Virus record (IMG/VR): IMGVR_UViG_3300028422_001975
Location: 1-45,740 of that record
Reading direction: 5' to 3' (one strand)
Source: a virus
Length of the DNA stretch: 45,740 bases
Shown here piece by piece: positions 4,031-13,658 of the stretch. Each line of letters begins with the position of its first letter. Positions within the stretch are counted from its first letter, which is position 1. The notes below the pieces were generated by a model, which was given only the letters and a program-made list of their open reading frames with translations, had not been told where the DNA came from and ran no database searches. A program made the position numbers and the translations under genes.

Positions 4031-5034
4031 GCCACGAGGCCACCAACTGGGCCATCAAGCAACGCGGGTTGAAGCCCACGACCAAGATCGTGCTCTGGCA
4101 CCTCTGCGACCGGTTCAACCCGGACTACGGCTGCTTCCCCTCCCAAGGTCGGCTCGCGCATGACTGTGAAATCAGCCGGTCCACGCTGAACGATCACCTT
4201 GGCCAGCTCGAGGCCGTGGGACTGCTGCGGCGGGTGCCGCGGCTCGATCCCGTGACCAAGCGACAGCTGCCCACCCGCTACATCCTGGGGTTCGAGCCGG
4301 GCTTCACACCTGTGGCTGTGGTGCCGTGTCCGGAAATCGGACACGGGGAGGATGAGGCTGAGGAAAGCCTCGACGGTGCCGATGTTTGCGACGTCGGAGG
4401 CATGGCCGATACCTTGCCGTGTCCGGATTTCGGACACGGGATCGACGCGGGAGCCGTGTCCGATTTTCCGACCGAGCCGTGTCCGGAAAATGCCGAAAGC
4501 CGTGTCCGAAATCCGGACACTAACCCTGTAAGGGAACCTCTAAGTAAACCAGTAAAGGAGGAGGAGGGCGCGCAAGCGCGCGAGTGCGTATCCGATGAGG
4601 TGTTCGGGGACCTGCTCGCCGCGCTGGGCCTCGACCCCGCCGTTCTGCCCGGCTGGTGGCAAGGCTGGCCGCCCCGGCTGCATGTCCAGCGCTGGCGCGA
4701 CGAACTGGGGCTGACCGAGGCGGAGATCATCGCCGCCGCCGAGGCCTCCCGTGAAGAGCATCCCGAACCGCCAGACGGGCCGAAGGCGCTGGACCGCGCC
4801 ATGCAACGCGCCGCCCAGCGCAAGGTCGAGGATGCCGGGCGGAAGCGGCGGAAGCCGAAAGTGGCCCCTGCCCCGGCCGCCAAGCCGATCACCGACTTGC
4901 CAGCCTTCTACGCCGATCTGGTCAACTCCGACCGCTACCTGCCGGTCAGCGCGATCAGCAACACGATGCGCGATGCCATGCTGGCCCGGGGGCTCGTGAC
5001 ACCCGAACGCCTGCGCGAGCGCGGAGTGCGGTGA
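4027..5034 (+). CDS. Winged-helix phage replication protein (putative initiator)
   Basis: A 335-residue protein starting at an ATG that overlaps the previous stop. Residues 1-75 form a winged helix-turn-helix (LKPTTKIVLWHLCDRF, FPSQGRLAHDCEISRSTLNDHLGQLEAVGLLRRV), as in the phage 'helix-turn-helix/replication O-like' proteins. A low-complexity linker (about 100-165) with repeated PCPEIGHG / PCPDFGHG / PCPEN units is encoded by the dyad iterons. A helical C-terminal region (about 185-335) includes the basic stretch RKRRKPKVAP. Lambda O likewise carries its origin iterons inside its own gene, so an initiator role is likely but inferred. It overlaps the methyltransferase start by GTGA. Confidence 0.75.
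   Translation: MSHEATNWAIKQRGLKPTTKIVLWHLCDRFNPDYGCFPSQGRLAHDCEISRSTLNDHLGQLEAVGLLRRVPRLDPVTKRQLPTRYILGFEPGFTPVAVVPCPEIGHGEDEAEESLDGADVCDVGGMADTLPCPDFGHGIDAGAVSDFPTEPCPENAESRVRNPDTNPVREPLSKPVKEEEGAQARECVSDEVFGDLLAALGLDPAVLPGWWQGWPPRLHVQRWRDELGLTEAEIIAAAEASREEHPEPPDGPKALDRAMQRAAQRKVEDAGRKRRKPKVAPAPAAKPITDLPAFYADLVNSDRYLPVSAISNTMRDAMLARGLVTPERLRERGVR
4324..4520. repeat. Iteron-like dyad array, candidate replication origin
   Basis: Five copies of CCGTGTCCG lie in about 200 bp at 4324, 4417, 4454, 4477 and 4500. Three form dyads with a 5-nt A/T-rich spacer: CCGTGTCCG/CGGACACGG at 4324-4346 and 4417-4439 (perfect 9-bp arms), and GTGTCCG/CGGACAC at 4502-4520 (perfect 7-bp arms). All lie inside the replication-protein gene, in the part coding for its variable linker. 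The arms are much better conserved than the protein needs, and the layout resembles lambdoid origins nested in the initiator gene. Origin function is inferred. Confidence 0.6.
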
Positions 5035-6107
5035 ATGGCATGGTGCTTCGTCCCCGGCACGGATTGTCCCTCTGCGCAGGCGGTGGAGGCCTTGATCTGG
5101 GCCTCATGCTCGCCGAGCCCGGCTATCACACCCGCGCCTTCGTCGAATGGGAGAACTGGCCTCGCGCCGTCCTCATCGCGGCCCAGCGCGCAGGATACTT
5201 TGCCCCGGCCCCGATCTGGAGCGACCTGCGCAGCTTCGATGCCCGGCCCTTCCGCGGAGCGTTCGACGCCGTCCTCGCAGGCTATCCCTGCCAGCCCTTC
5301 AGTGCGGCCGGCAAGCGAGCCGGGGCCGACGATCCTCGCCACCTCTGGCCCGACGTCACCCGCGTTATCGGCGAATGCCGCCCGGAATGGGTCTTCCTTG
5401 AGAACGTCGCAGGGCACGTCACCCTCGGGCTTGAGACCGTCCTGCGAGAGCTTTGGGGATTGGGCTACACGCCTGCGGCGGGCCTGTTCTCGGCGGCTGA
5501 GGTCGGCGCGCCGCACGAGCGGCTGCGCATCTTCATCCTGGCCCACACCGATGAGTCTGCATCCCGGCACTGGCAGCTACAACCCGGCCGGAAACAGCGA
5601 CTTCACCCACAAGGCAGAGGCATTGGCGCTGGGCATCGCGAATGCTCTGCCGAACCACTGGCCGACACCGGCCGCGCAGAACTGGAAGGGGTCGAGCCAG
5701 GCAAGCATCACCCGCACCGATGGCAAGTCCCGGATGGACCTGCTGCACTACCGGGCGGAGCAGGGCTTCACCCGCCCGGCCCCGTTGATCTGGCCGGATG
5801 GGCCGCGGTCCTCGCCGCACGCCCCGATCTCGCGCCCGCTCTGGGCTTCGATGATTGCCTCGCATGGGCGCGTCGTCTCGCGGCGGATCCTGAAGGGCCG
5901 GGCGCGGCGGCGGCTGAACCCGCTCTTCGTCGGATGGCTGATGGGCTGGCCCATCGGGCACGCGCTCTGCGCCTGCTCGGCAACGGAGTTCACCCACTGG
6001 CAGCAGCACATGCGTGGCGCTCTCTCGCAGCTGCCCATGGCCTCGGGCCCGTGGATCTGGCGGCCGACGGACCAGGCCCAGCGCCCGGCACAAATGGATT
6101 TCCTTGA
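5031..6107 (+). CDS. DNA (cytosine-5) methyltransferase
   Basis: Transfers methyl from SAM to cytosine C5. The 358-residue product has motif I (LCAGGGGLDLGL, 14-25), motif IV GYPCQPF with catalytic C87, motif VI FLENV (123-127), motif VIII-like APHERLRIFIL (160-170) and C-terminal motif IX/X (RRMADGLA, then LLGNGVHPLAA). The target-recognition region between VIII and IX is low-complexity and is overprinted by a second gene. The start is GTG 5031, overlapping the preceding TGA; ATG 5040 is an alternative. No cognate restriction endonuclease is adjacent, so an orphan phage methylase that masks DNA from host restriction is likely. Confidence 0.9.
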   Translation: MNGMVLRPRHGLSLCAGGGGLDLGLMLAEPGYHTRAFVEWENWPRAVLIAAQRAGYFAPAPIWSDLRSFDARPFRGAFDAVLAGYPCQPFSAAGKRAGADDPRHLWPDVTRVIGECRPEWVFLENVAGHVTLGLETVLRELWGLGYTPAAGLFSAAEVGAPHERLRIFILAHTDESASRHWQLQPGRKQRLHPQGRGIGAGHRECSAEPLADTGRAELEGVEPGKHHPHRWQVPDGPAALPGGAGLHPPGPVDLAGWAAVLAARPDLAPALGFDDCLAWARRLAADPEGPGAAAAEPALRRMADGLAHRARALRLLGNGVHPLAAAHAWRSLAAAHGLGPVDLAADGPGPAPGTNGFP

Positions 6108-6123
6108 AGGATTGCAGCCATGA
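5551..6123 (+). CDS. Overprinted phage protein in the +1 frame of the C5 methyltransferase
   Basis: A 190-residue ORF starting MSLHPGTGSYNPAGNSDF, with WPTPAAQNWKG in the middle and RLNPLFVGWLMGWPIG near the end. I recognise these features (SLHPGTGSYNPAGN, WPTP units, LNP-FV-WLMG-P) from a recurrent phage protein family of unknown function. The same DNA reads methyltransferase motifs IX/X in the other frame, so both frames look selected. Its TGA (6121-6123) overlaps the ATG of the next gene at 6120, continuing the chain of ATGA junctions in this operon; the methyltransferase stop at 6107 would break it. No Shine-Dalgarno sequence is evident at 5551, so expression by internal initiation or frameshifting is open. 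Confidence 0.6.
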   Translation: MSLHPGTGSYNPAGNSDFTHKAEALALGIANALPNHWPTPAAQNWKGSSQASITRTDGKSRMDLLHYRAEQGFTRPAPLIWPDGPRSSPHAPISRPLWASMIASHGRVVSRRILKGRARRRLNPLFVGWLMGWPIGHALCACSATEFTHWQQHMRGALSQLPMASGPWIWRPTDQAQRPAQMDFLEGLQP

Positions 6124-6978: not shown

Positions 6979-9369
6979 ATGAACCAGGCCGCCCACAACA
7001 AGCTCATCTCCTTCATCTGGTCCATTGCTGACGACTGCCTGCGCGACGTCTATGTGCGCGGCAAGTACCGTGACGTTATCCTGCCGATGGTCGTCCTGCG
7101 CCGCCTCGACACGCTGCTAGAACCCACCAAGGCGGCCGTCCTCGAGGAAGTCCGCTTCCAGCGCGAAGAGATGAAGGCGACAGAGCTCGATGATGCCCCG
7201 CTGACCGCTGCCTCGGGATACGTGTTCTACAACACCAGCAAGTGGACGCTGAAGCAGCTTCACGCCACGGCCACGAACAACCAGCAGATCCTGCTGGCCA
7301 ACGTCGAGGAATATCTCGGCGGCTTCAGCGACAACGTCAAAGAGATCATCGCCCGCTTCAAGCTGCTCGAGCAGATGCGTCACATGGCGAACAAGCAGGT
7401 CCTGCTCGACGTGCTGGAAAAGTTCATTTCGCCGTACATCAACCTGACGCCCCAAGACGCCGAAGACCCGGACGGCAACATGATGCCCGGCCTGTCGAAC
7501 CTCGGCATGGGCTATGTCTTCGAAGAACTGATCCGCAAGTTCAACGAAGAAAACAACGAGGAAGCCGGGGAGCACTTCACCCCGCGTGAGGTCATCCATC
7601 TGATGACCCACCTCATCTTCGACCCGATCAGCGGCCAACTGCCACCGGTGATGACGATCTACGACCCGGCCTGCGGCAGCGGCGGGATGCTGACCGAGGC
7701 CCAGAACTACATCAAGGAACCCGAAGGCCCCATCGCGGCCAAGGGCGACGTCTACCTTTATGGCAAGGAAATCAACGACGAGACTTATGCCATCTGCAAA
7801 TCCGACATGATGATCAAGGGCAACAACCCCGAGAACATCAAGGTCGGCTCGACGCTGGCCACCGACGAATTCTCCGGCCATCGCTTCGACTTCATGCTGT
7901 CGAACCCGCCTTACGGCAAAAGCTGGAAGAGCGATCTCAAGCACATCAAGGACGGCAACGACGTCATCGATCCGCGCTTTCAGGTGGAACTGACCGATTA
8001 TTGGGGCAAGACGGAAGCCGTCGATGCCACGCCACGCTCCAGCGACGGGCAACTCCTGTTTCTGATGGAAATGGTGGGCAAGATGAAGCCCATCGCCAAC
8101 AGCGCCATCGGCTCACGCATCGCCTCCGTCCACAACGGCTCCAGCCTGTTCACCGGCGACGCGGGCAGCGGCGAATCCAACATCCGCCGCTTCATCATCG
8201 AAAACGACATGCTGGACACCATCATCCAGCTGCCGAACAACCTGTTCTACAACACCGGCATCTCCACCTACATCTGGCTTTTGACCAACGCCAAGCCCGA
8301 GGGGCGGCGCGGCCGTGTGCAGTTGATCGACGCCAACCTGATGTTCCGCAAGCTGCGCAAAAACCTTGGCGACAAGAACTGCGAATTCGCCCCGGACCAT
8401 ATCGACGACATCATCGCCGCCTACATGGCCTTCCAGCCGGTCGAACGGCAGCTTGACGCCAACGGCGATCCCACCGGCATCGCGGTGCAGATCTTCGACA
8501 ACACCGATTTCGGCTATCACAAGGTCACCATCGAACGCCCCGACCGCCGCCGCGCGCAGTTCAACGCGGAACGGCTGGAACCCCTGCGCTTTGACAAATC
8601 CCTGCGCGAACCGATGGAGCATCTGTGGGTCGAACATGGCGACAAGGTCTATGAGCCGGGCTTCCTGAAGGGTCAGGCCAAGGCCATTCAGGCCTGGTGC
8701 GAGGAGCAGGAGATCGCGCTGAACGCCAAGCAGCGCGGCAAACTGGTTGATACCTTGCTCTGGCAGAGAAACCGCGATCTGATCGGGGTCGGCCATCAGC
8801 TGATGCAGGCCGTCGGCACCGAGGAAACGGCGGATTTCAACGCCTTCCGCGATCATGTGGGCAAGGTGCTGAAGGCCCGCAAGATCAAGCTGACCGCGAC
8901 CGAGAAGAACGCGATCCTGAACGCGGTCAGCTGGTATGCCGATGACGCGGAAAAGGTGATCGACAGCATCCAGCGCTATTCCAAGGCAGAGCTGGAGGCG
9001 GTGGCAGAGCGGCTTGGCTGTGGCGTTGATGAACTTGGCGACTTCGGCCTTTATGCCCAGCCGGATGGCAGTTACCTGACCTACGCCCCCAGCACCGACC
9101 TGCGCGACAGCGAGGCGGTGGCCCTGAAGGACAGCATCCACCGCTATTTCAAGGCCGAGGTAAAGCCGCACGTGCCCGAGGCCTGGATCAACCTCGACAC
9201 GGTCAAGATCGGCTACGAGATCAGCTTCAACAAGTATTTCTACCGCCACAAGCCGCTGCGCAGCCTCGATGACGTGACGCGGGACATTCTGGCGCTGGAG
9301 CAAAAGGCCGATGGCCTGATCGCCGATATTCTGGGGGTGAAGCCCGCCGATCTGTCGGAGGCGGTGTGA
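6979..9369 (+). CDS. hsdM: Type I restriction-modification system, methyltransferase (M) subunit
   Basis: N6-adenine methyltransferase subunit of a type I complex (HsdR2M2S1). In the 796-residue product, residues 1-160 form the N-terminal helical HsdM domain (WSIADDCLRDVYVRGKYRDVI). GEHFTPREV (197-205) is the conserved lead-in to the SAM motif I DPACGSGGML (229-238), and the catalytic motif IV NPPYG is at 309-313. The protein is longer than the roughly 500-residue enterobacterial HsdM; the extra C-terminal 250 residues are helical and end YRHKPLRSLDDVTRDILALE, a form seen in other long HsdM proteins. It overlaps hsdS by 1 nt (TGATG). The 190-bp leader (6789-6978) shows no confident promoter. 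Confidence 0.95.
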   Translation: MNQAAHNKLISFIWSIADDCLRDVYVRGKYRDVILPMVVLRRLDTLLEPTKAAVLEEVRFQREEMKATELDDAPLTAASGYVFYNTSKWTLKQLHATATNNQQILLANVEEYLGGFSDNVKEIIARFKLLEQMRHMANKQVLLDVLEKFISPYINLTPQDAEDPDGNMMPGLSNLGMGYVFEELIRKFNEENNEEAGEHFTPREVIHLMTHLIFDPISGQLPPVMTIYDPACGSGGMLTEAQNYIKEPEGPIAAKGDVYLYGKEINDETYAICKSDMMIKGNNPENIKVGSTLATDEFSGHRFDFMLSNPPYGKSWKSDLKHIKDGNDVIDPRFQVELTDYWGKTEAVDATPRSSDGQLLFLMEMVGKMKPIANSAIGSRIASVHNGSSLFTGDAGSGESNIRRFIIENDMLDTIIQLPNNLFYNTGISTYIWLLTNAKPEGRRGRVQLIDANLMFRKLRKNLGDKNCEFAPDHIDDIIAAYMAFQPVERQLDANGDPTGIAVQIFDNTDFGYHKVTIERPDRRRAQFNAERLEPLRFDKSLREPMEHLWVEHGDKVYEPGFLKGQAKAIQAWCEEQEIALNAKQRGKLVDTLLWQRNRDLIGVGHQLMQAVGTEETADFNAFRDHVGKVLKARKIKLTATEKNAILNAVSWYADDAEKVIDSIQRYSKAELEAVAERLGCGVDELGDFGLYAQPDGSYLTYAPSTDLRDSEAVALKDSIHRYFKAEVKPHVPEAWINLDTVKIGYEISFNKYFYRHKPLRSLDDVTRDILALEQKADGLIADILGVKPADLSEAV

Positions 9370-10622
9370 TGACGCTTGCCGCGTTCCCCGCCCATTCCGA
9401 ATACAAGGCTTCCGGCTATGATTGGGTCGGCGATGTGCCCGCGCACTGGGCAGTCGAGAAACTGGGCACTTGCCTGACCTCGGTATCCCGAAAAGGGCGG
9501 CCTGACCTTCCGTTGCTCTCGATTACCCGTGAAGAGGGGGTGATCGAACGCGACGTGGACGATCAAGAAAGCAACCACAACTTCATCCCAGAGGACCTGA
9601 GCAATTACAAAGTCTTGCGGGCAGGTCAGTTTGGCATGAACAAAATGAAGGCGTGGCAGGGGTCCTACGGGATTTCCAACCATACTGGCATCGTAAGCCC
9701 CGCATACTTTGTTTTCGACATCACGCGAGAGGTTGATCCGGCGTTCTTCAACCGCGCGCTTCGCAGCAAGCTGTATGTCTCATATTTCGCCGCCGCTTCG
9801 GATGGCGTGCGGATTGGACAGTGGGACTTGTCCAAAACACGGATGCGGGAAATTCCGGTTCTGCTTCCTCCCCTCCCCGAACAACGTGCCATCGCGGCGT
9901 TTCTGGATGAGAAATGCGCCAAGGTGGATGAGGCGGTGCGGATCAAGGAAGAGCAGATCGCGCTGTTGCGCGAGCGGCGGCAGATCCTGATCCAGCAGGC
10001 CGTCACCCGCGGCCTGAACCCCGCCGCCCCGATGAAGGACAGCGGCATCGACTGGATCGGCCAAATCCCCGCGCATTGGGAGCGGCGAAAGGTTCGCCAT
10101 CTTTTTTCTATCGGGAGAGGCCGAGTGATTCCAAAAGACGAGTTAGTGGAAAACGGCCTTTATCCTGTCTATTCGTCGCAAACGAAGAACGATGGCATTT
10201 TTGGTTACCTGAATAGCTACGACTTTGACCAAGATCAGCTCACTTGGACAACAGACGGCGCAAACGCTGGAACAGTCTTCCGTCGGCGGGGAAAGCACAA
10301 TTGCACAAATGTGTGTGGAACATTGTCGCCAAAAACTAACGATACGGATTTGGATTTCTGCGTTCATGCCGTGGGACATGCTGCCTTATTCTACAAGCGC
10401 CCAGACACCAATGGTGCAAAAATCATGAACGAAGAGATGGCGGCCATCGAGTTTCCTTTGCCACCCATGGAAGAGCAAATCCTAATTTCTAGGAAAATTT
10501 CTGAGGTCAGCGAAAAATTTGAAAATGCTTACTCGATCAAGGAAGACCAGATCGCGGCACTCAAGGAATACAAGACCAGCCTGATCAACGCGGCGGTCAC
10601 GGGCAAGATCAAGGTGGCGTAA
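9369..10622 (+). CDS. hsdS: Type I restriction-modification system, specificity (S) subunit
   Basis: Determines the bipartite recognition sequence through two target-recognition domains (TRDs). The ATG at 9369 overlaps the hsdM stop; GTG 9366 is possible. The 417-residue product shows the standard duplicated layout: TRD1 (about 1-170), conserved helical spacer (LPPLPEQRAIAAFLDEK, then IALLRERRQILIQQAVTRGL), TRD2 (from DSGIDWIGQIPAHWERRK to about 365), and a second spacer (LPPMEEQILISRKI, IAALKEYKTSLINAAVTGKI). TRD2 (about 10090-10560) is visibly A+T-richer than TRD1, as expected if its specificity was swapped in by recombination. The target sequence cannot be predicted here. Confidence 0.93.
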   Translation: MTLAAFPAHSEYKASGYDWVGDVPAHWAVEKLGTCLTSVSRKGRPDLPLLSITREEGVIERDVDDQESNHNFIPEDLSNYKVLRAGQFGMNKMKAWQGSYGISNHTGIVSPAYFVFDITREVDPAFFNRALRSKLYVSYFAAASDGVRIGQWDLSKTRMREIPVLLPPLPEQRAIAAFLDEKCAKVDEAVRIKEEQIALLRERRQILIQQAVTRGLNPAAPMKDSGIDWIGQIPAHWERRKVRHLFSIGRGRVIPKDELVENGLYPVYSSQTKNDGIFGYLNSYDFDQDQLTWTTDGANAGTVFRRRGKHNCTNVCGTLSPKTNDTDLDFCVHAVGHAALFYKRPDTNGAKIMNEEMAAIEFPLPPMEEQILISRKISEVSEKFENAYSIKEDQIAALKEYKTSLINAAVTGKIKVA

Positions 10623-10631
10623 GGGGGGATC

Positions 10632-13600
10632 ATGGTCAGCAACACCAAGGAAGTGGCGTTAGAACAGGCGATCCAGCGGCACCTGACGGGCCTGACGAGT
10701 GAGGAACTGGCTGGCCAGCCCGCGCCGGATGGCCATGGCCCCTTTCGCCTCGGCCTGCCTGCCGATTTCGACGCTGAATACGCACTCGACACCCGGCTGT
10801 TCTGGGAGTTTCTGGAAACCACCCAAGGCAAAGAGCTGGCCAAGCTGAAGGCACGCAATCCAGGCGACTGGCAGCGCAAGATCCTTGAACGCTTCGACCG
10901 GCTGATCAAGAAGAACGGCGTGCTGCATCTGCTGAAGAAAGGCCTCGCCGTCGACGATGCCTTCTTTGCGCTGATGTACCCCGCGCCGCTGGCCAGTTCC
11001 GCCGCCAAGGTGCACGAAAACTTCGCCGCCAACATCTTCAGCGTGACCCGGCAGGTGCGCTATTCGCAGACCAACCCCGGCGAAGAGATCGACATGGTCC
11101 TCTTCCTCAACGGGTTGCCGCTGATCACCATCGAGCTGAAGAATGCCTGGACCGCCCAGACCGCCCGTTATCACGGGCAGAAGCAGTATCGCGACGGCCG
11201 CGACGCCACCCAGCCCCTGCTGCAGTTCGGCCGCGCGCTGGTGCATATGGCGGTGGACACCGACGAGGTGTTCATGACCACGAAGCTGGCGGGGCCCGCG
11301 ACCTTCTTCCTGCCCTTCAACAAGGGCCATGAACAGGGCGAAGGCAACCCGCCCAACCCGAACGGCCACAAGACCGCCTATTTGTGGGAAGAGGTTTTCA
11401 CCAAGGAAAGCCTTGCGGGCATCATCCAGCATTTCGTGCTGCTGGAGGGCAAGGCGACCGACCCGCTGGCCAAGAAGTCGATGATCTTCCCGCGCTATCA
11501 CCAATTGGAGGTGGTGCGCCGATTGCTGGCCCATGCGGCGACGACCGGCGTCGGGCACAGCTATCTGATCCAGCACTCGGCGGGTTCAGGCAAGTCGAAC
11601 TCGATCACCTGGACGGCCTATCAGCTGATCGAGACCTATCCGGCCAAGGTGGGCATTCCGGGCGCCAAGGGGCTGGACCAGCCGCTGTTCGACAGCGTGA
11701 TCGTGGTGACCGACCGGCGGCTTCTGGACAAGCAGCTGCGCGAGAACATCAAGGATTTCTCGGAGGTCAAGAACATCGTCGCCCCGGCGCTGCGCTCGGC
11801 CGATCTGAAATTGGCGCTGGAGAGCGGCAAGAAGATCATCATCACGACGATCCAGAAGTTCCCTTTCATCATCGAGGGGATCGCCGACCTGAGCGACAAG
11901 CGGTTCGCGGTGATTATCGACGAGGCCCACAGCGGCCAGAGCGGTAGCGCGCATGACAACATGAACCGCGCGATGGGTGCGGGCGATCAGGACCCGGACG
12001 AGGATGACCCGCAGGACCGGATCCTCGCGGCGATGCAGTCGCGCAAGATGCGTGGCAACGCATCGTATTTCGCCTTCACGGCCACGCCCAAGAACACGAC
12101 GCTGGAAAAGTTCGGCGAGCGCCAGGCGGATGGCAGCTTCAAGCCCTTCCACCTCTACAGCATGAAGCAGGCCATCGAGGAAGGTTTCATCCTCAACGTG
12201 TTGGCGAACTACACGACCTACAAGAGCTATTACGAGATCCAGAAGTCGATTGCCGACAACCCCCTGTTCGACACGAAAAAGGCCCAGAAGAAGCTGCGGG
12301 CCTATGTCGAGCGCAGCCAGCAGACGATCAACACCAAGGCCGAGATCATGCTCGACCATTTCATCGAGCACGTGGTGACGCCGAAAAAGCTGCGCGGCAA
12401 GGCCAAGGGGATGATCGTCACCCAGAACATCGAGGCGGCCATCCGCTACTACAAGGCGGTGACCAAGCTGCTGGCGGACCGGGGCAGCCCGTTCAAGGTG
12501 CTGATCGCGTTCTCTGGCGAGAAGGTCGTGGACGGGGTGACCCACACCGAGGCCGAGATGAACGGGTTTCCCGAAGCCGACACGCGGGACCGGTTCGACG
12601 AGGACGACTACCGGCTGTTGGTGGTGGCCAACAAGTATCTGACCGGTTTCGACCAGCCGAAACTGACCACGATGTATGTGGACAAGAAGCTGCAGTACGT
12701 CCTCGCCGTGCAGGCGCTGTCACGGCTGAACCGTTCGGCCCCGAAACTCGGCAAACGGACCGAGGACCTGTTCATCCTGGACTTCTTCAACGACGTGACG
12801 GACATCAAGGCGGCCTTCGACCCCTTCTACACTGTCACCACCCTTTCATCTGCAACGGATGTGAACGTCCTTCACGAGCTGAAGGGATCGCTTGACCAGG
12901 TCGGCGTCTACGAATGGCAGGAGGTCGAAGAGTTCGTCACGCGCTATTTCGCTGGCGAGGACGCGCAGGCACTCAGCCCGTTGATCGATGTGGCGGCGGA
13001 TCGGTTCAACCATCAACTGGAACTGGCCGAGAAGGACAAGATCGACTTCAAGATCAAGGCGCGACAGTTCGTCAAAATCTATGGCCAGATGGCGTCGATC
13101 ATGCCGTTCGAGGTTCTGGAATGGGAGAAGCTCTTCTGGTTCCTGAAGTTCCTGGTACCAAAGCTGAAGATCAATGATCCGGACCAGGATATGCTGGACG
13201 AGTTGCTGGAGGCCGTCGATCTATCCTCTTACGGCTTGGAGCGGACCAAACTGAACCACACGATCGGTCTCGACGCATCCCCAACCGAACTCGAACCTCA
13301 GAACCCCAATCCACGGGGCTATCGGGATGGTGAACCCGAGAAAGACCCGCTCGACGAGATCATCCGGTCATTCAACGAGCGATGGTTTCAGGGGTGGAGC
13401 GCCACACCGGAGGAACAACGGGTCAAGTTTATCAACGTCGTGAACAGTATACGGTCGCACCCCGACTACACTGAAAAGTACGAAGCGAATAGTGACCCAT
13501 ATAACCGCGGCCTGGCCCTTGAAAAAATGCTGCAGGAAGTAATGCTGAAGCGTAGAAAGGAAGAACTGGAGCTTTACAGGCTCTTCGCCTCAGATCCTGC

Positions 13601-13658
13601 GTTCAAGACCGCGTGGAGTCAGAGTATCGAAAAGGTACTGATGACCAATTCGGTGTAG
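10632..13658 (+). CDS. hsdR: Type I restriction-modification system, restriction (R) subunit
   Basis: ATP-driven DNA translocase and nuclease. The 1008-residue product has an N-terminal PD-(D/E)XK nuclease core (EEIDMVLFLNG with D154, then ITIELKNAW with E168 and K170, and QKQYRDGRDA). Superfamily 2 helicase motifs follow: Walker A AGSGKSNS (317-324), IIDEAHSGQ with DEAH at 430-433, FAFTATPK (480-487), and RecA2 motifs (MIVTQNIEAAIRYY, LVVANKYLTGFDQP, VQALSRLNR). The C-terminal helical domain binds the methylase core. All catalytic residues are intact, so restriction should work. It follows hsdS by 9 nt, with GGGGG before the ATG. Codon use turns A+T-richer in the last 200 bp. Confidence 0.95.
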   Translation: MVSNTKEVALEQAIQRHLTGLTSEELAGQPAPDGHGPFRLGLPADFDAEYALDTRLFWEFLETTQGKELAKLKARNPGDWQRKILERFDRLIKKNGVLHLLKKGLAVDDAFFALMYPAPLASSAAKVHENFAANIFSVTRQVRYSQTNPGEEIDMVLFLNGLPLITIELKNAWTAQTARYHGQKQYRDGRDATQPLLQFGRALVHMAVDTDEVFMTTKLAGPATFFLPFNKGHEQGEGNPPNPNGHKTAYLWEEVFTKESLAGIIQHFVLLEGKATDPLAKKSMIFPRYHQLEVVRRLLAHAATTGVGHSYLIQHSAGSGKSNSITWTAYQLIETYPAKVGIPGAKGLDQPLFDSVIVVTDRRLLDKQLRENIKDFSEVKNIVAPALRSADLKLALESGKKIIITTIQKFPFIIEGIADLSDKRFAVIIDEAHSGQSGSAHDNMNRAMGAGDQDPDEDDPQDRILAAMQSRKMRGNASYFAFTATPKNTTLEKFGERQADGSFKPFHLYSMKQAIEEGFILNVLANYTTYKSYYEIQKSIADNPLFDTKKAQKKLRAYVERSQQTINTKAEIMLDHFIEHVVTPKKLRGKAKGMIVTQNIEAAIRYYKAVTKLLADRGSPFKVLIAFSGEKVVDGVTHTEAEMNGFPEADTRDRFDEDDYRLLVVANKYLTGFDQPKLTTMYVDKKLQYVLAVQALSRLNRSAPKLGKRTEDLFILDFFNDVTDIKAAFDPFYTVTTLSSATDVNVLHELKGSLDQVGVYEWQEVEEFVTRYFAGEDAQALSPLIDVAADRFNHQLELAEKDKIDFKIKARQFVKIYGQMASIMPFEVLEWEKLFWFLKFLVPKLKINDPDQDMLDELLEAVDLSSYGLERTKLNHTIGLDASPTELEPQNPNPRGYRDGEPEKDPLDEIIRSFNERWFQGWSATPEEQRVKFINVVNSIRSHPDYTEKYEANSDPYNRGLALEKMLQEVMLKRRKEELELYRLFASDPAFKTAWSQSIEKVLMTNSV

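Follow-up and report, generated by a model that had tools for sequence, protein, structure and literature searches.

The viral locus analysed here very probably encodes a C5 DNA methyltransferase as two chains, read from overlapping frames: a catalytic chain (F1) and a second chain (F2) for target recognition and motif IX. Both frames are conserved and open, F1 is without a modelled recognition domain, and F2 holds motif IX and a region that is found in frame in other phage methyltransferases. The window, that is, the whole stretch of DNA that was analysed, is the 45,740-bp IMG/VR virus record IMGVR_UViG_3300028422_001975. The two ORFs lie on the same strand and are almost coextensive, with starts 4 nt apart. 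The GTG of F1 at 5031 overlaps the stop of the upstream neighbour (GTGA), a replication-initiator-like gene terminating at TGA 5032-5034. The layout of the locus is as follows:

5031-6107 (+): F1, C5 methyltransferase catalytic chain of 358 aa with motifs I-VIII and X, GTG start
5035-6123 (+): F2, +1 ORF of 362 aa with putative recognition modules plus motif IX, ending at TGA 6121-6123
6120-6123 (+): ATGA, where the F2 stop overlaps the start of the next gene (nearly all relatives have ATGA or GTGA here)

The original prediction had placed a second protein over the C-terminal half of the methyltransferase, sharing about 560 bp with it. The +1 ORF is as it was described: ATG 5551 opens MSLHPGTGSYNPAGN, WPTP and RRLNPLFVGWLMGWPIG lie inside, all three peptides belong to F2, and TGA 6121-6123 overlaps the ATG of the next gene as predicted. 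The overlap is genuine and involves the target-recognition region, with selection found in both frames, but it extends over about 1073 bp rather than 560, because in all standard relatives the +1 frame is already open at ATG 5035 and stays so up to 6123. The notion of an unrelated protein confined to the C-terminal half has to be given up: F2 is nearly coextensive with F1 and most likely represents the missing part of the same enzyme. Similarly, of the two motifs assigned to F1, only motif X is there; motif IX is located in F2, and RRMADGLA is the F1 segment that precedes motif X and lies over motif IX.

With the F2 segment 5551-6120 as the only query, 76 loci were retrieved from viral contigs and 80 from genome contigs, mostly of Rhodobacterales. 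This is far beyond chance. In nearly all those loci, frame 1 encodes the methyltransferase N half and the C-terminal motif X, and the +1 frame encodes the F2 homologue, a constant frame relation. Among 111 non-redundant relatives, both frames are open in every one (F2 from the position equivalent to 5035), and the F1 and F2 stops are spaced by 16 nt in nearly all. When the search was widened with coliphage and cyanophage F2 queries and the frames were scored with HMMs, 340 loci were obtained. In 320 of them, the segment comprising the target-recognition domain (TRD) and motif IX lies in the +1 frame relative to motifs I-VIII as well as to motif X; in three, it shares the frame of motifs I-VIII. 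In one metagenome-assembled contig (L145:87-1274), motifs I-VIII and F2 share one frame and motif X is in another, which could reflect either a fusion that occurs naturally or an assembly error of one base.

Analysis of F1 revealed motifs I-VIII with the catalytic PCQ and ENV, as well as motif X (GNxV...P). The Pfam model PF00145 matches only residues 12-179 (E 5.8e-31; 108.6 bits vs a cut-off of 22), and phrog_363 matches residues 12-335, motif X included (E 7e-55). The catalytic residues P86, C87 and Q88 are invariant, as are G305, R309, L313, R314, G317 and N318 in the motif X region. The main F1 segments are:

5064-5567 (+): F1 motifs I-VIII, including PCQPFS and ENV (PF00145; pLDDT mostly > 90; Foldseek match to M.HhaI)
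5574-5741 (+): F1 linker, aa 182-237, apparently replacing the recognition domain (pLDDT < 50; neutral F1 dN/dS)
5943-6014 (+): motif X region of F1, DGLAHRARALRLLGNGVHPLAAAH, under constraint in F2 as well (F1 dN/dS 0.03-0.13; pLDDT 93)

The AlphaFold2 model of F1, built from 74 sequences, corresponds to a C5 catalytic domain; rows from the phages collection were left out in alignment for structure modelling. Block means of pLDDT are mostly > 90 at residues 11-170, < 50 at 182-237 and 93 at motif X, with the disordered residues coinciding with a neutrally evolving stretch. Foldseek matched the model to M.HhaI (E 3.9e-15) and M.HaeIII over approximately 173 of 324-327 columns; therefore, only the large domain is matched. 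The F1 chain does not have a target-recognition domain and motif IX of its own, residues 182-237 being disordered and neutral and motif IX lying in F2. On the two-chain reading, what was the recognition region of F1 is now a neutral and probably disordered linker that needs only to stay open.

F2 is composed of WxTPxAxD/N..KG modules, numbering from one to about six among relatives, and ends in RRLNPLFVGWLMGWPIG. The following parts can be distinguished in the window:

5539-5654 (+): first F2 module, WPTPMSLHPGTGSYNPAGNSDF..., containing ATG 5551 (F2 dN/dS 0.06-0.16; module comparison)
5659-5766 (+): second F2 module, WPTPAAQNWKGSSQASITRTDGKSRMDLLHYRAEQGF, with invariant W37, P38, P40, K46, G47, D63 and L65
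5908-5958 (+): F2 motif IX, RRLNPLFVGWLMGWPIG, with invariant L122, P124, W129, L130, M131 and P134, aligning with the in-chain motif IX of Gordonia phage SchottB

The family phrog_1008 matches residues 78-230 of the full 5035-6120 product (E 1.9e-17), along with the F2 products of K1ind2 (1.1e-64), Paenibacillus phage Bloom (6e-72) and phPA-G (4e-12); phrog_27243 also matches F2 (E 7e-104). The same phrog_1008 recognises the in-frame TRD-IX-X C-termini of single chains in the Gordonia phages SchottB (3e-32) and Gudmit (3.6e-49). SchottB carries QQLSPVFVEWMMGLPRG in one chain with motifs I-VIII and the motif X LKMLGNGVVP; in E. coli Dcm, RRLTPRECARLMGF occupies motif IX and is followed by motif X. 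The family shared between F2 products and the Gordonia in-frame C-termini, combined with the alignment at motif IX, indicates that F2 consists of methyltransferase TRD and motif IX sequence. The original prediction had been made to depend on +1 homologues outside the shadows of methyltransferase genes. Some do exist, namely these two Gordonia C-termini, yet their absence would have been a misleading test because F2 is itself methyltransferase sequence. SchottB (L346) and Gudmit (L345) additionally show a variant split, in which a +1 frame with recognition-like modules ends ahead of motif IX, leaving IX and X to the catalytic frame, which in Gudmit includes further modules as well.

Other comparisons with F2 gave less. 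Pfam and NCBIfam models produced zero matches in the 66 F2 sequences searched, hhalign gave no meaningful alignment of F2 with E. coli Dcm, and a PDB sequence search returned no real match. AlphaFold2 modelled F2 alone with low confidence (mean pLDDT 61.8). A poor fold is what one would expect if F2 needed its partner in order to fold, though it is no evidence for that.

Selection was estimated by a four-class count in OLGenie style plus a sliding window, in three length classes. The resulting dN/dS values are approximate, as the pairs are non-independent and the counts are without multiple-hit correction: 0.12-0.19 for F1 and 0.5-0.8 for F2 in the N half, and 0.57-0.85 for F1 and 0.23-0.29 for F2 in the overlap. 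By sliding window, F1 is constrained up to about 5570 (motifs I-VIII, 5031-5570), neutral at 5571-5720 (0.8-2.4), and constrained again at 5721-5885 (0.30-0.40) and at motif X (0.03-0.13 over 5931-6065). F2 is constrained from about 5480 to its end, reaching 0.04-0.10 at the motif IX region and just after. Selection on F1 and F2 is complementary by segment. Selection in one frame only, which would have spoken against an overlapping pair, was looked for, and each frame was found to have constrained segments of its own.

The rate of changes that are synonymous in F1 and nonsynonymous in F2 (dSN) is low in the first 30 codons or so (0.083, 0.162 and 0.283, then about 0.4), and drops again from about 5421 (0.19 down to 0.04). 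This suppression marks the parts of F2 that matter, although close to a start, mRNA structure is another possible cause of few synonymous changes. Two segments of F2 follow from these values:

5035-5120 (+): constrained start of F2 (dSN 0.083-0.28 vs a plateau of about 0.4; F1 codon 2 AAT in 111/111)
5121-5420 (+): F2 open, with amino acids hardly constrained (F2 dN/dS 0.5-1.0; no F2-frame stops)

The weak constraint on F2 at 5121-5420, though the frame is kept open, is odd for a translated protein.

The start of F2 is most likely ATG 5035, judging from its sequence context. This ATG stands directly after the upstream stop, in a conserved TGAATG, and is preceded by GGAG 8 nt before. It is created by F1 codon 2, which is AAT in 111/111 loci; for the other Asn codons in the region, the ratio of AAC to AAT is 121:23. 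An internal start at ATG 5551 was considered and is unlikely, because constraint begins upstream, the ATG is the M of a WPTPM module, and a few relatives have GTG or ACG in its place or lack it.

Base composition and stop codons give further information about both frames. In the overlap, GC3 is 0.863 in the F2 phase vs 0.578 in the F1 phase, so the gene-like GC pattern there belongs to F2 and not to F1, whose GC3 is 0.80 upstream of 5550. Synonymous shuffles predict about 1.5-3 stops per frame; nevertheless, both frames are open in the 111 relatives. For the N half, F1 synonymous shuffles give 1.9 expected F2-frame stops per locus, and the sole one present, in 111/111 loci, is the TGA of the upstream gene, part of the GTGA that this gene shares with F1 right at the beginning. 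In the third frame, the number of stops agrees with the expectation (2.6 vs 2.75). Moreover, CTN and GTN codons before an A, where a final G would create a TGA in F2, never end in G in F1 (0/434, in 19 alignment columns), compared with 370/1032 in the upstream and 485/787 in the downstream flanking gene.

Openness was also evaluated in a wide set of 153 further non-redundant loci. F2 is open in 96% of them vs 13% expected, an N-half figure that may be biased upward by the partial use of full-length F2 queries in retrieving the set; the Rhodobacterales set is free of this bias because it was retrieved with 5551-6120 only. F1, in turn, is open through the F2-dominated segment in 99.4% of the wide set vs 5.7% expected, and in 100% of the Rhodobacterales set vs 21%.

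These data bear on three other readings of the locus. F2 could be a non-coding shadow of a GC-rich methyltransferase gene, since long spurious ORFs are common in this GC-rich window and F2 homologues lie almost entirely in methyltransferase loci. However, it is F2, not F1, that shows the coding GC3 pattern and the lower dN/dS in the overlap, stop avoidance is seen in F2 but is missing from the third frame, and a Paenibacillus phage gene with 47% GC is annotated with the same layout. A shadow-only reading is contradicted by GC3, dN/dS and stop avoidance, and has been rejected as scarcely credible.

If F2 is translated, it might still be a separate protein, such as a regulator or an anti-restriction factor, rather than a methyltransferase subunit, and F2 alone indeed has no Pfam match. 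This is unlikely, given that F2 contains the motif IX missing from F1, that homologous sequence is in-chain in the Gordonia methyltransferases, and that F1 is without a recognition domain. It is also quite improbable that programmed ribosomal frameshifting near 5551 joins motifs I-VIII of F1 to the modules and motif IX of F2 as a single polypeptide, possibly followed by a return shift for motif X. The DNA segments follow the order of a single-chain enzyme (I-VIII, TRD, IX, X), and the L145 contig has I-VIII and F2 in one frame. Nonetheless, frameshifting requires neither an open F2 upstream of the shift nor an open F1 after it, and both are selected; including motif X would take two shifts, and no conserved shift site was recognised on inspection by eye.

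Under the two-chain reading, F1, started at GTG 5031, would fold as the large catalytic domain with motifs I-VIII and carry motif X, providing catalysis and cofactor binding. Ribosomes arriving at the stop of the upstream gene would start F2 4 nt downstream, at ATG 5035, and the closeness of the starts may couple the synthesis of the two chains. F2, with its target-recognition-like modules and motif IX, would then bind F1 in trans and act as the small domain that reads the DNA. The enzyme would probably serve to methylate phage DNA, protecting it against restriction.

A natural split has been described for M.EcoHK31I, a C5 methyltransferase (YGGCCR) of two polypeptides that is active once assembled (PMC3404938; PMC3439449); its large chain has motifs I-VIII and X, and its small chain IX (PMC3404938). 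Compared by this published motif distribution, F1 likewise has I-VIII and X and a second chain has IX, as in 320/340 loci. Lee et al. 1995 reportedly found the small gene nested in the large one in another frame, and F2 also overlaps F1 in another frame. There are nevertheless differences. The predicted TRD of M.EcoHK31I is published as part of its large chain, whereas in the present locus the TRD region of F1 evolves neutrally and it is F2 that has the modules. In addition, F2 spans almost the whole of F1, relatives differ in module number, and the arrangement belongs to phages in which no partner restriction enzyme of that type is evident.

M.AquI is another two-polypeptide C5 enzyme, with motifs I-VIII in one chain and the later motifs in the second (PMC3404938). 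Its small subunit has IX, X and part of the variable region, unlike the present locus, where X stays on the catalytic chain and the genes overlap lengthwise. Multispecific phage C5 methyltransferases, such as that of Bacillus phage SPbeta, have several side-by-side recognition modules that share chain and frame with the catalytic domain. The several modules are shared with F2, but here they are out of the catalytic frame. A literature search, with most subscription journals outside it, did not find the arrangement described in phages.

On balance, it seems rather likely that this is an old and widespread phage architecture, present in phages of Proteobacteria, Cyanobacteria and Firmicutes, with a variant in phages of Actinobacteria. 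A C5 methyltransferase would be split between two nearly coextensive frames with starts a few nt apart, the functional parts of each chain lying largely over the free parts of the other. Module arrays would evolve out of frame over the catalytic linker, so that specificity could change without touching the catalytic domain. If true, this would be a rare same-strand overlap where selection can be followed per frame and segment over many genomes and where an overlapping gene acquires and loses specificity modules. Should F2 be the source of target recognition, specificities predicted for such enzymes and tests of one gene alone would mislead, because F1 alone would be without a recognition domain.

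Hundreds of the surveyed phage loci hold two overlapping methyltransferase ORFs, of which annotators usually kept one in the records examined. Both are annotated in K1ind2, K1H and Paenibacillus phage Bloom, F1 alone in N15 (gene 58) and RcMcDreamy, and F2 alone in Ssp-JY39, EcoPhCCP1 and phPA-G. In Escherichia phage N15 (L338, 1122-2117), the same overlap lies under gene 58, with the F2 ORF unannotated; in Pseudomonas phage phPA-G (L347, 1442-2310), the F2-type ORF is annotated as a hypothetical protein and the catalytic frame beneath it is unannotated. The families phrog_363 and phrog_1008 (both 'DNA methyltransferase') match F1 and F2, respectively, here, in K1ind2 and in Bloom; they are labelled as separate methyltransferases, and the labels are silent on their often being two frames of one locus.

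Finally, about 1-2 kb downstream of F1, several loci (L013, L022, L055, L062, L147 and others) have another match of C5 methyltransferase type, a distant one with about 29-34% identity to the F1 N half. In the window itself, a complete-looking type I restriction-modification operon lies directly downstream (6979-13658), comprising HsdM (6979-9369), HsdS (9366-10622) and HsdR (10632-13658).
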